Below, piece by piece: positions 2,499 through 57,113 of a stretch of DNA of 64,000 nt (its first letter is position 1; each line of letters begins with the position of its first letter). Under the pieces are notes generated by a model. The model ran no database searches. It was not told the DNA's origin and worked only from the letters and a program-made list of their open reading frames with translations. The DNA is from Psychrobacter raelei (lineage in GTDB: Bacteria; Pseudomonadota; Gammaproteobacteria; Pseudomonadales; Moraxellaceae), in NCBI RefSeq assembly GCF_022631235.3, contig NZ_CP093310.2, positions 2,418,001 through 2,482,000 of the forward strand, in the 5' to 3' direction. The position numbers and the translations under genes were made by a program.

Positions 2499-3539
2499 AT
2501 GAAATACACCACCCTCCCACAACTTGGTGACAAGGTTTCCAAAATTTGCTTGGGCACCATGACTTGGGGTCAGCAAAATACCGAAGATCAGGCGCATCAA
2601 CAAATGGACTTTGCATTAAGCGAAGGCGTGAACTTCTGGGATACCGCAGAGATGTATCCCTCACCGCCTGCCAAAGAAAAACAAGGGGATACCGAGCGTT
2701 TTATCGGCACTTGGTTTGCCAAGACCAAAAAGCGTAATGAGGTGATTTTGGCCAGTAAAATCTCTCCCATGGATTTCTTACGCGACGGTCAAACCCGTTT
2801 TAATGCCAAACACATCAGTGACGCAATCGATGGCAACTTAAAGCGGTTGCAAACCGATCATATCGATGTGTACCAACTACATTGGCCTGAGCGTCAGACT
2901 AACTTTTTTAGCACCCGCGGCTATACCGAACAGATGGCGCAGCAAGATTTATCTCAGCTCACTCCATTTTTAGAGACCATCGAGGCCTTAAATGACGAGA
3001 TTAAAAAAGGCCGCATTAGAGCTTGGGGACTCTCCAACGATACCGCTTGGGGCGTTATGCGCTATTTGTGGGAAGCTGAGAAAAATGGCTTAAAAGGTCC
3101 CATCACAGTCCAAAACCCTTATAGCTTATTGAATCGGTTATATGAGGTTGGATTGGCAGAGGTGGCCCATCGTGAGAATGTCGGTCTGCTTGCCTACTCA
3201 CCGCTTGGCTTTGGGGTATTATCTGGTAAATACCTAGACGGTAAACAGCCTGAGGGCGCACGTCTAACCATGTATGACCGCTTCCAACGTTACATCAATG
3301 ACGAAGCCAAGTGGGCCACTGAGCAATATGCGCGTATCGCTACAGATGCCGGTCTAGATATGGCACAAATGGCCTTAGCCTTCGTGAACAGCCGTCATTT
3401 TGTGACCAGTAATATCATTGGTGCCACCTCTATTGAGCAGTTGAAGTCTAATATTGACAGTGTTGATATTGAGCTAAGTGATGATGTGTTGCAGGCCATT
3501 GAGGCGGTGCATACTCAGCAGCCCAACCCCTCACCCTAA
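2499..3539 (+). CDS. tas: Aldo/keto reductase, Tas family
   Basis: NADP(H)-dependent aldo/keto reductase. From the ATG at 2499 (preceded by AAAAAGG) it has 346 residues, the same length as E. coli Tas. It shares LGTMTWG, the catalytic DTAEMYPSPP block (Asp and Tyr of the tetrad), LKRLQTDHIDVYQLHWP (His) and IQNPYSLLNR-type barrel segments. The physiological substrate of Tas is poorly defined; E. coli tas was found by complementing tyrosine auxotrophy. The frame stays open to a GTG at 2436, but there is no ribosome site there. It ends at a strong terminator. Confidence 0.85.
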   Translation: MKYTTLPQLGDKVSKICLGTMTWGQQNTEDQAHQQMDFALSEGVNFWDTAEMYPSPPAKEKQGDTERFIGTWFAKTKKRNEVILASKISPMDFLRDGQTRFNAKHISDAIDGNLKRLQTDHIDVYQLHWPERQTNFFSTRGYTEQMAQQDLSQLTPFLETIEALNDEIKKGRIRAWGLSNDTAWGVMRYLWEAEKNGLKGPITVQNPYSLLNRLYEVGLAEVAHRENVGLLAYSPLGFGVLSGKYLDGKQPEGARLTMYDRFQRYINDEAKWATEQYARIATDAGLDMAQMALAFVNSRHFVTSNIIGATSIEQLKSNIDSVDIELSDDVLQAIEAVHTQQPNPSP

Positions 3540-6341: not shown

Positions 6342-7787
6342 TTGGATTATTTTGGTAGACATGAAGGTGGCGAACGCGCCATCTTAGTACACTTAGAGGT
6401 TAGACAAATCGCAGACCCTGATGATTTAGAGGAATTTAAATTATTGGTAGACTCTGCAGGTGCGCAGCAATTGGCGGTCATCACAGGGTCAAGACAGAAG
6501 CCGGATGCCAAGTATTTTATTGGTAGTGGTAAAGCACAAGAGATTGCCGAGCAGGTACAGGCGCTTGAGGCAGATATTGTTATTTTTAACCACAGTTTAA
6601 CGCCTTCACAAGAGCGTAACTTAGAGACCTTGCTGCAATGCCGCGTCTTAGATCGTACTGGTCTAATTTTGGATATTTTCGCTCAGCGTGCCCGTACTTA
6701 TGAAGGTAAATTGCAGGTGGAATTGGCTCAGCTTAACCACTTGGCGACCCGCCTAGTACGCGGCTGGACCCATTTGGAGCGTCAAAAAGGGGGGATTGGT
6801 CTACGCGGACCAGGTGAAACCCAGCTTGAAACCGATAGACGCTTGCTACAAATTCGAGTGTCTCAGTTAAAAGCACGCCTCGATAAAGTCAAACAGACCC
6901 GAGCACAAGGCCGAGCCAAGCGTCAAAAATCAGATGTATTGACCATCTCATTGGTGGGCTATACCAACGCCGGCAAGTCCTCTTTATTTAACCGCTTGGT
7001 CGATGAGGATATTTATGCTGCTGACCAGCTTTTTGCGACCTTAGATCCTACTTTAAGACGTATGGACTGGCAAGGCGTGGGCCGAGTGGTCTTGGTCGAT
7101 ACGGTAGGTTTCGTGCGTCATTTACCGCACGAGTTGGTAGAGTCATTCCATGCAACTTTGGAGGAGACGCTAGAGGCTGACTTGTTATTACATGTGATTG
7201 ACTCTTCAAGCCCCGACATGCATGAGCAAATCAAAGCAGTAAAAGAGGTATTGAGCGAAATTGATAACCATGTGCCTGTGCTCAATGTCTACAACAAGAT
7301 CGATATCACTGGTGAGCCGGCACAAATTAACTATAGTGGTCCTGGCGTGCCCAGTCGTGTGTATGTCTCCGCTAAGGCTGACCTTGGCATGAGTATGCTG
7401 CACACTGCCGTACAGCAGTTATTGACCGGTAAACTCAACACGTTTGAGATCACCCTACCCTTCAATGCCGGCAATCTAAAAAATGAGCTATACCGCTTGG
7501 ATGTGGTCGAACAAGAAAGCTATGATGAGCAGGGCCATGAAGTACTTACCCTACGTCTGCCCTCTGATAAGTTGCAGCAATTGTTGGGTCAAGCCAATAT
7601 TGATCCTCTCTCAGTGCTGCCTAAAGACCAAGCTGAGCTGCTGATACCTACTCTTGAGCCTTTTGAAAAACAGCTAAAAGCCGATCAAGAAGCCAAAGCC
7701 GCCCTACTGGATTTAGAGGCAGACTTTGAGGCGCCTGATTTTGAGCCAGCAGCAGATTGGCCTGAAGACGATGATATTCTGCGCTAA
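6342..7787 (+). CDS. hflX: Ribosome-associated GTPase HflX
   Basis: TRAFAC-class GTPase that splits or rescues stalled ribosomes under stress. The 481 residues contain the HflX N-domain (ITGSRQKPDAKYFIGSGKA), the glycine-rich GLRGPGETQLETDRR segment, G1 GYTNAGKSS near residue 205, G3 DTVGF and G4 NKID. The start is TTG at 6342 with AGGTGA six bases upstream; its first residues align with the start of E. coli HflX, and the nearby ATG at 6360 is out of frame. An acidic C-terminal tail of about 50 residues is extra relative to E. coli. It is separated from its usual partner hfq, which is not in this window. Confidence 0.95.
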   Translation: MDYFGRHEGGERAILVHLEVRQIADPDDLEEFKLLVDSAGAQQLAVITGSRQKPDAKYFIGSGKAQEIAEQVQALEADIVIFNHSLTPSQERNLETLLQCRVLDRTGLILDIFAQRARTYEGKLQVELAQLNHLATRLVRGWTHLERQKGGIGLRGPGETQLETDRRLLQIRVSQLKARLDKVKQTRAQGRAKRQKSDVLTISLVGYTNAGKSSLFNRLVDEDIYAADQLFATLDPTLRRMDWQGVGRVVLVDTVGFVRHLPHELVESFHATLEETLEADLLLHVIDSSSPDMHEQIKAVKEVLSEIDNHVPVLNVYNKIDITGEPAQINYSGPGVPSRVYVSAKADLGMSMLHTAVQQLLTGKLNTFEITLPFNAGNLKNELYRLDVVEQESYDEQGHEVLTLRLPSDKLQQLLGQANIDPLSVLPKDQAELLIPTLEPFEKQLKADQEAKAALLDLEADFEAPDFEPAADWPEDDDILR

Positions 7788-56345: not shown

Positions 56346-56380
56346 AAAAAAGCCGACCTTGTAAATAACTCAACGGTCGG
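56346..56380 (+). terminator. Intrinsic terminator of ychF
   Basis: AAGCCGACC and GGTCGGCTT form a stem, with an A7 run before and a T-rich tail after, about 90 bp past the stop. Confidence 0.82.
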
Positions 56381-56399
56381 CTTTATTTTACAATATTAT

Positions 56400-56414
56400 T
56401 GTTATAATATAACA
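56400..56414 (+). promoter_or_regulatory. Zur-box-like palindrome over a -10 box
   Basis: TGTTATA-A-TATAACA is a perfect 15-bp palindrome and equals the core of the Zur operator of gammaproteobacteria (GTTATAATATAAC). The embedded TATAAT (56403-56408) suggests the site overlaps the -10 element, the classic position for repression. It lies about 80 bp before the histidine-rich lipoprotein gene and after the ychF terminator. Zur regulation is inferred. Confidence 0.7.
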
Positions 56415-56495
56415 TACTATTGTGGCTGTATTTTCGGCTGGATCTAACCCAGCCTGTTATCGCTAACTTGCGTTTGCTATTTTATAGGATTTTTT

Positions 56496-57113
56496 ATGTC
56501 ACCTTTGTCTTTTTACCATCGATTGACTTTAGCCTCTGCTACTCAAATGACAGGTGGTCGTTTGAGCGGTTTATTACTACTTAGCGCCTGTCTAGGCTTG
56601 ACGGCTTGCCAGCCTAATGAGCCCTCGAATGCCCCCAACACCGATACCCAAGAGCAGCATGAACATTCTGAACATGACGATCATCAGACTGATCACGCAG
56701 AGCATGGCCATGACGAACATGACGAACAGGCTCATGACGAACACGATGAGCATGACCATGAGGCAGCCGCTCATCATCACGACCATGCCGACCAGCCACG
56801 TATCACCTTTAAGTGTCAGCCTGAAGGCGACATTAGCGTCTACTATCATAACGATGATGAGCCAAAGACCGCCCACCTACTGCTAGATGGCCTAGAGTAT
56901 GACTTAGTTGAAGACAGCAACCTGCCCGCACAGACTTATATCAGCAGCCTTGGTCTAGATGACAGCCACGGCTTAGTGTGGCAAGTACAAGATAAGCAGG
57001 CGAGCTTATTTTCAGTGCCTACCGCACTTGCTAAAGCCAAATCAATTAACGACCAAGCTCATCTTGAACAGCAAAATAAACTATACAACTGTCAGCAAAC
57101 CGGCCAAATGTAG
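56496..57113 (+). CDS. Histidine-rich lipoprotein with MliC-like domain
   Basis: 205-residue predicted lipoprotein: lipobox LTAC (Cys38), a linker (about residues 50-100) with 16 His among Asp/Glu, then a ~100-residue beta-rich domain. It starts FKCQPEGDISVYYHNDDEPK, with LLLDGLEYDL and GLVWQVQDKQASLF, and ends in YNCQQTG. The layout, with paired cysteines (107 and 199), resembles MliC-type lysozyme inhibitors. The linker looks zinc-binding, and the upstream palindrome at 56400 agrees. AGGA precedes the ATG. Homology to MliC is by eye only; no family is certain. Confidence 0.75.
   Translation: MSPLSFYHRLTLASATQMTGGRLSGLLLLSACLGLTACQPNEPSNAPNTDTQEQHEHSEHDDHQTDHAEHGHDEHDEQAHDEHDEHDHEAAAHHHDHADQPRITFKCQPEGDISVYYHNDDEPKTAHLLLDGLEYDLVEDSNLPAQTYISSLGLDDSHGLVWQVQDKQASLFSVPTALAKAKSINDQAHLEQQNKLYNCQQTGQM

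Follow-up and report, generated by a model that had tools for sequence, protein, structure and literature searches.

The analysed stretch of DNA (the window; 64,000 nucleotides from a Psychrobacter near P. sanguinis, the nearest named protein being 94% identical) carries a gene for a 205-residue His-rich lipoprotein (56496..57113, + strand), which is preceded by a perfect 15-bp palindrome of the type bound by the zinc-responsive repressor Zur. We regard control of the gene by Zur, through binding at the palindrome, as very probable, and we lean towards the reading in which the gene is a single-gene Zur target whose product catches zinc with its His-rich linker, the C-terminal barrel being a scaffold or a partner-binding domain. 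The case for the box rests on the perfect site, on its company in the genome and on its conservation.

The palindrome and its conservation with the lipoprotein gene

The palindrome TGTTATAATATAACA (56400..56414, a Zur-box-type operator to which no strand is assigned) has 7-1-7 symmetry around one centre base, with 0 mismatches, and is separated by 81 nt from the ATG at 56496. An earlier inspection of the letters alone (the sequence-only reading) had described it as a perfect 15-bp palindrome overlapping TATAAT about 80 bp before the gene, which is accurate. The gammaproteobacterial Zur box has been given as AATGTTATAWTATAACATT (PMC3516566), and the 15-mer of the window is identical to the core within the Acinetobacter baumannii znuA/zur promoter probe of that report, to which purified Zur bound with zinc in an EMSA and from which it was released by EDTA (PMC3516566).

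Within the genus, a family profile search recovered clear orthologues (at least 70 bits) in 47 of the 80 genomes, own genome included, and the box precedes all 47 of them: 40 times perfectly, 6 times with one mismatch and once with two. This tally comprises 43 parsed loci (36 perfect, 6 with one mismatch, 1 with two), three further loci with a perfect box (L073, L080 and L081) and one more perfect box in genome G085 (L040); the weakest box, with two mismatches and 269 nt before the start, is that of genome G108. Conservation of the box upstream of orthologues, proposed as a check in the sequence-only reading, was therefore found throughout. Sufficient flanking sequence was available at 41 of the 43 loci, and in the 22 non-redundant upstream regions drawn from these the column identity averaged 0.97 in the box vs 0.63 in the 40 nt on each side; both half-sites are kept and the centre base varies. 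The commonest form of the box (30/43) is TGTTATATTATAACA, on the + strand of which TATAAT does not occur. In shuffled (mononucleotide) upstream regions of the 43 genus loci a perfect box was never seen, and one or two mismatches were reached in 0.05% and 0.55%, respectively.

Of 58 genus loci, a count into which some genomes entered twice, 56 have the lipoprotein gene flanked by ychF and dgt; the other two loci are cut by contig ends. We inspected 26 of the 33 orthologue-less genomes: ychF is present in all, the best match to the box in the 400 nt after ychF has at least three mismatches in 26/26, and dgt is the first same-strand frame after ychF in 25. Since the box accompanies the gene in 47/47 genomes and both are lacking in 26/26, gene and box come and go together.

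The TATAAT inside the box (56403..56408, + strand), with TG one base before it, is a possible extended -10 element, judging from its letters, and would in that case be covered by a bound repressor; a promoter scan of the box region performed at chance level (2 found vs 1.9 expected) and picked a different hexamer there. In the window the gene is flanked by ychF upstream (assigned by eye) and by an HD-domain gene downstream (Pfam HD; called dgt by eye). A probable ychF terminator (56350..56391, + strand; stem AAGCCGACC/GGTCGGCTT, loop of 16, T-rich tail) was recognized by eye, and the lipoprotein gene is therefore probably transcribed from a promoter of its own; the hairpin scan admits loops of 3-8 only, and this 16-nt-loop hairpin is absent from its output. 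The likely ribosome-binding site for the ATG is AGGA (56486..56489, + strand; by eye).

Other box-bearing genes in the same genome

Among the genes of this genome are znuA (PF01297) and zur (PF01475); the two that follow zur were recognized by eye as znuC and znuB. The exact 15-mer has a single occurrence in the 3.17-Mb genome. The zur-znuA intergenic region holds a box that is two mismatches away from the exact pattern, or one when the centre base is left free; of the 6 relatives scanned by pattern, the corresponding box is perfect in the 5 inspected at this place (all but G108), and it is perfect too in G043, which was located through its Zur protein. One-base variants of the 15-mer occur at four other places, adjoining: i) a ZnuD-like pair; ii) a tonB-exbB-exbD-PepSY set beside a YceI gene (the Ton and Exb genes named by eye); iii) a gene of the Nm-ACP family; and iv) a convergent pair. 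The first of these sites is central to a 29-bp perfect palindrome (6963-6991 in locus L062, G000:C1:3050000-3062000) between two divergent ZnuD-like TonB receptors, for which the solved match is ZnuD (4rdr, E 4.9e-71 and 4e-16). The similar boxes at the zur, znuA, ZnuD-like and tonB genes show that the same signal marks standard zinc-starvation genes, which bears out the designation of the palindrome as Zur-box-like. Of the features expected of a member of a Zur regulon, those that can be read from sequence were found: an upstream palindrome, a zur gene in the genome, similar boxes at zinc-uptake genes and conservation of the box with the gene.

Some features of these loci deserve separate mention. 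Both called ZnuD-like frames reach or overlap the 29-bp palindrome, and their true starts are probably further in. The Nm-ACP family gene (2870-3310, - strand, in L061, G000:C1:2569500-2577000; PF24574, E 7.8e-36) has its one-mismatch box at 3500, ~200 bp upstream, and the solved relatives of its product are the Neisseria adhesins 5my7 and 6gq4. Among 20 ACP loci of the genus a box with at most one mismatch was seen in 5, all of them at the top of the list by score (76-100% identity). The His-rich lipoprotein is missing from 4 of the 5 genomes with a boxed ACP gene. The site of the convergent pair (position 4204 of L064, G000:C1:2508203-2508217) lies between a GAF-type gene and tgt (both by eye) and has no obvious target. 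A second frame resembling a His-rich lipoprotein, this one with a DUF305 domain, is found at 6017-6850 in L060, ~1.5 kb beyond the tonB/YceI box.

The His-rich linker and the predicted MliC/PliC-type barrel

The protein begins with a signal peptide and the lipobox LTAC (56496..56609, + strand; by eye and from alignment A1), in which Cys38 is the presumed lipidated residue; C38 is invariant in the 27 sequences of alignment A1, as required of a bacterial lipoprotein. It continues with an acidic His-rich linker (residues 50-97; 56643..56786, + strand), in which we counted 16 His and 19 Asp/Glu, and ends in a domain with two cysteines, C107 and C199, so that the architecture described in the sequence-only reading holds in each of these elements. 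In relatives with the linker, the segment from the lipobox Cys to the first domain Cys contains 9-25 His, and the number of His per frame is 11-34 in 44 distinct Psychrobacter frames and 12-29 in 15 distinct Moraxella frames, in a survey that left frames with fewer than 8 His uncounted and missed L108. The linker probably binds zinc. A search of contigs with the single protein returned one locus, in a Pseudonocardiales record, that matched the His-rich part only (residues 41-93).

For the C-terminal domain (residues 102-205; 56799..57110, + strand) the AlphaFold2 model (pLDDT 91.4, pTM 0.85) predicts a barrel of eight strands, and the best solved matches of this model in a fold comparison were PliC, PhiA, MliC and ACP. 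The fold resemblance to MliC suggested earlier is thereby corroborated at the level of prediction, and C107 and C199 likely form a disulfide. By sequence the relation is much fainter: the domain scores 12.9 bits on Pfam MliC (PF09864), below the 22-bit cut-off, the whole protein gives no match to that family at E <= 1, and the A2 profile retrieved from the PDB sequences no MliC match, just weak unrelated ones, which is why the fold comparison was needed. Two relatives without the His linker, L054 and L059, score 34.3 and 44.4 bits on PF09864.

A string AHL, AHI, AHA or VHL, as around H127, occurs in 39 of the 44 distinct Psychrobacter frames and 13 of the 15 Moraxella frames, and is not found at that place in canonical MliC domains or in those of the Moraxellaceae genus g9. 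Going by the strand positions in the model, H117 would face H127 across a predicted hairpin, and the two are a possible metal site.

The sequence-only reading had further supposed that the protein may protect the wall against lysozyme. As an explanation in its own right this would make the protein an inhibitor, under Zur control, of a peptidoglycan lyase, be it that of a host or the cell's own: starvation would signal the host or stress, the domain would block lysozyme or a lytic transglycosylase, and the linker would be secondary. We consider this doubtful. The motifs used against lysozyme are SGxxY and YxxxTKG, and both are absent from the window protein. SGxxY is present in 1 of the 44 distinct Psychrobacter frames and in none of the 15 Moraxella frames, and a [TS]KG string in 2 and 5 of them, respectively, outside the relative L109 (which carries SGAKY and SKG) never at the aligned place of the motif. 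The genome moreover encodes a separate canonical MliC (L196) with SGARY and a TKA variant, and no Zur box; a canonical MliC is present in 79 of the 80 genus genomes, and in 28 of the 30 best-scoring loci the 350 nt scanned contain no box at up to 2 mismatches. Together with the sub-threshold Pfam score, these findings weaken the lysozyme part of the earlier claim.

In genome G108 a canonical MliC lipoprotein gene (L165/L203, contig C9; PF09864, 2.4e-10) has a perfect Zur-type box ~300 bp upstream, and one further canonical locus of the 30 has a box within 2 mismatches. With just 2 such cases among the 30 best-scoring loci, we rejected MliC genes as general Zur targets.

The family extends to Moraxella, where the relatives (group g10) retain the lipobox, the His-rich linker and the domain; ychF adjoins the gene in 8 of 15 Moraxella loci and in neither of two g9 loci. 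M. catarrhalis is represented too, by P0132 with its 141 member sequences, in a search of which 120 of 151 matches are listed, and UniProt labels some Moraxella members C-type lysozyme inhibitor domain or MliC-like, among the 120 of 138 matches listed by a search that scored the 7997 candidates sharing most words. In the four members of g9 the MliC-type domain comes without a His-rich linker and the gene lacks a box at up to 3 mismatches; it stands at another locus in both members whose neighbours were inspected. A sample of 145 genomes drawn from the order, 21 of them listed and including four others of the family, gave no match besides the own genome at E <= 1e-8.

Proposed role, alternative explanations and known systems

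Under the reading that we favour, zinc-loaded Zur would sit on the palindrome over the -10 region when zinc is plentiful and block transcription. When zinc is scarce Zur would be released and the lipoprotein made alongside ZnuD-type receptors, TonB-ExbBD and ZnuABC. Probably anchored in the outer membrane, it would capture envelope zinc by its flexible His/Asp/Glu linker and might hold it for uptake by ZnuD, TonB and ZnuABC, and the MliC/PliC-type barrel, having lost the usual lysozyme-binding motifs, would be a scaffold or dock on another partner. Whether zinc capture is the main role of the protein we regard as evenly balanced.

Several observations weigh against this reading. The 33 of 80 genus genomes without a clear orthologue include G008, G105 and G137, whose YchF is 98-99% identical to that of the window; the protein is therefore dispensable and the gene not essential. 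In genome G164 the orthologue (L108) is split between two frames, although the box is still perfect. Imperfect boxes carry little weight by themselves: the number of sites with at most 3 mismatches in the window is ordinary (5, one counted on both strands, vs 3.55 expected), and six relatives have 21 sites with at most one mismatch vs 10 for a reversed control pattern, so that an unconserved imperfect site is weak evidence. The Moraxella boxes are weaker, with at most 3 mismatches in 15/15 loci (from the 18 g10 genomes with a match, 15 of which had loci) and at most 2 in 10/15; the box of L049 has three, a level reached by ~6% of shuffled Psychrobacter upstream regions. Their match also coincides in part with the extended -10 motif, and the best matches near Moraxella's own zur have one to three mismatches (11 loci). 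Finally, His-rich low-complexity linkers can have other roles, and the only likeness to the zinc-uptake factor ZrgA (NF047873) is through the linker (20.2 bits vs a cut-off of 185, E 3.6e-4).

A variant that combines zinc with the wall, which we find improbable, is that of a zinc-gated guard: induced through Zur, the protein would sense or carry zinc by its linker and would use the altered barrel to inhibit lytic transglycosylases of its own cell or, by way of a new surface, a host lysozyme. The barrel may still inhibit a peptidoglycan enzyme, because boxed ACP genes occur in lipoprotein-less genomes, the E. coli lysozyme inhibitor gene pliG is repressed by Zur (PMC4219657; reviewed in PMC6103462) and in A. 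baumannii starved of zinc a zigA mutant is rescued by losing a lytic transglycosylase (PMC11834433).

That the protein is instead a buffer for an excess of zinc (or copper or nickel) is very unlikely: His-rich linkers are also found in efflux and storage proteins, and the genome has the His-rich DUF305 lipoprotein elsewhere, but a gene that has a Zur-type box in common with uptake genes should be expressed at low zinc, not high. Least credible of all is that the palindrome is merely a strong extended -10 promoter (TGnTATAAT) with incidental symmetry, for even though TGTTATAAT fits that motif exactly and Moraxella keeps the left half better, both halves are kept in the non-redundant Psychrobacter upstream regions, the commonest form lacks TATAAT on the + strand, similar palindromes stand at the zur, znuA, ZnuD-like and tonB genes, and the probe to which A. 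baumannii Zur bound contains the 15-mer of the window.

Control by Zur of a lysozyme-inhibitor-type gene in E. coli (pliG) and of a wall lipoprotein in A. baumannii (ZrlA) is already known. PliG specificity is for g-type lysozyme. PliG and the window protein are alike in being envelope proteins of the lysozyme-inhibitor type, PliG under direct control by Zur (PMC4219657) and the window protein very probably so. The window protein differs in being a lipoprotein, in its His-rich linker and in its predicted fold, which is c-type (MliC/PliC). With the c-type inhibitors MliC (membrane-bound by name) and PliC (PF09864; 3f6z, 3oe3) it shares the predicted eight-strand barrel and the conserved Cys pair, and it differs by the long His-rich linker, the Zur box, the missing inhibitory motifs and the sub-threshold score; for Neisseria ACP (PF24574; 5my7, 6gq4) and Brucella PhiA (7dsg) the comparison concerns the domain only, with 12-20% identity in the aligned part. 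ZrlA is likewise a Zur-regulated Moraxellaceae lipoprotein tied to the cell wall, and is an M15-type D-Ala-D-Ala carboxypeptidase (PMC7812711); a ZrlA-like identity was set aside, as the window protein has no M15 peptidase match in Pfam at E <= 1. Vibrio ZrgA serves in zinc uptake, and a Zur site has been predicted upstream of its operon (PMC9817125); this identity was set aside as well, given that its NCBIfam profile aligns to the His-rich stretch only.

In the open-access literature searched we found no account of Zur targets in Psychrobacter, nor of the gene in Moraxella, and no Zur-controlled His-rich lipoprotein with an MliC-type barrel. The novelty claimed for the combination in the sequence-only reading stands in this form and is qualified by the Zur-pliG precedent; that reading as a whole is partly supported, its account of the regulation being strong, that of zinc plausible and that of lysozyme weak. 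None of the circumstances that it named as refuting was encountered: zur is present, similar boxes stand at other zinc genes, the palindrome recurs in related genomes and the predicted fold is related to MliC.

What emerges is a small conserved candidate, present in Psychrobacter as well as in Moraxella (including M. catarrhalis): a single lipoprotein, encoded behind a Zur box, in which a segment that probably captures zinc is joined to a predicted lysozyme-inhibitor fold. Seen beside E. coli pliG, it suggests that proteins of the lysozyme-inhibitor type were taken into zinc-starvation regulons on more than one occasion. A connection between lack of zinc and the integrity of the cell wall has been described in recent work on A. 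baumannii (PMC7812711, PMC11834433), and one that would run through the lipoprotein is predicted for Psychrobacter and Moraxella; were the wall-guard variant true, envelope zinc status would be coupled directly to wall turnover in both genera, M. catarrhalis again included. Apart from these genes, a one-mismatch Zur-type box was seen before a GTP cyclohydrolase I gene (PF01227) in genome G102 (L170).
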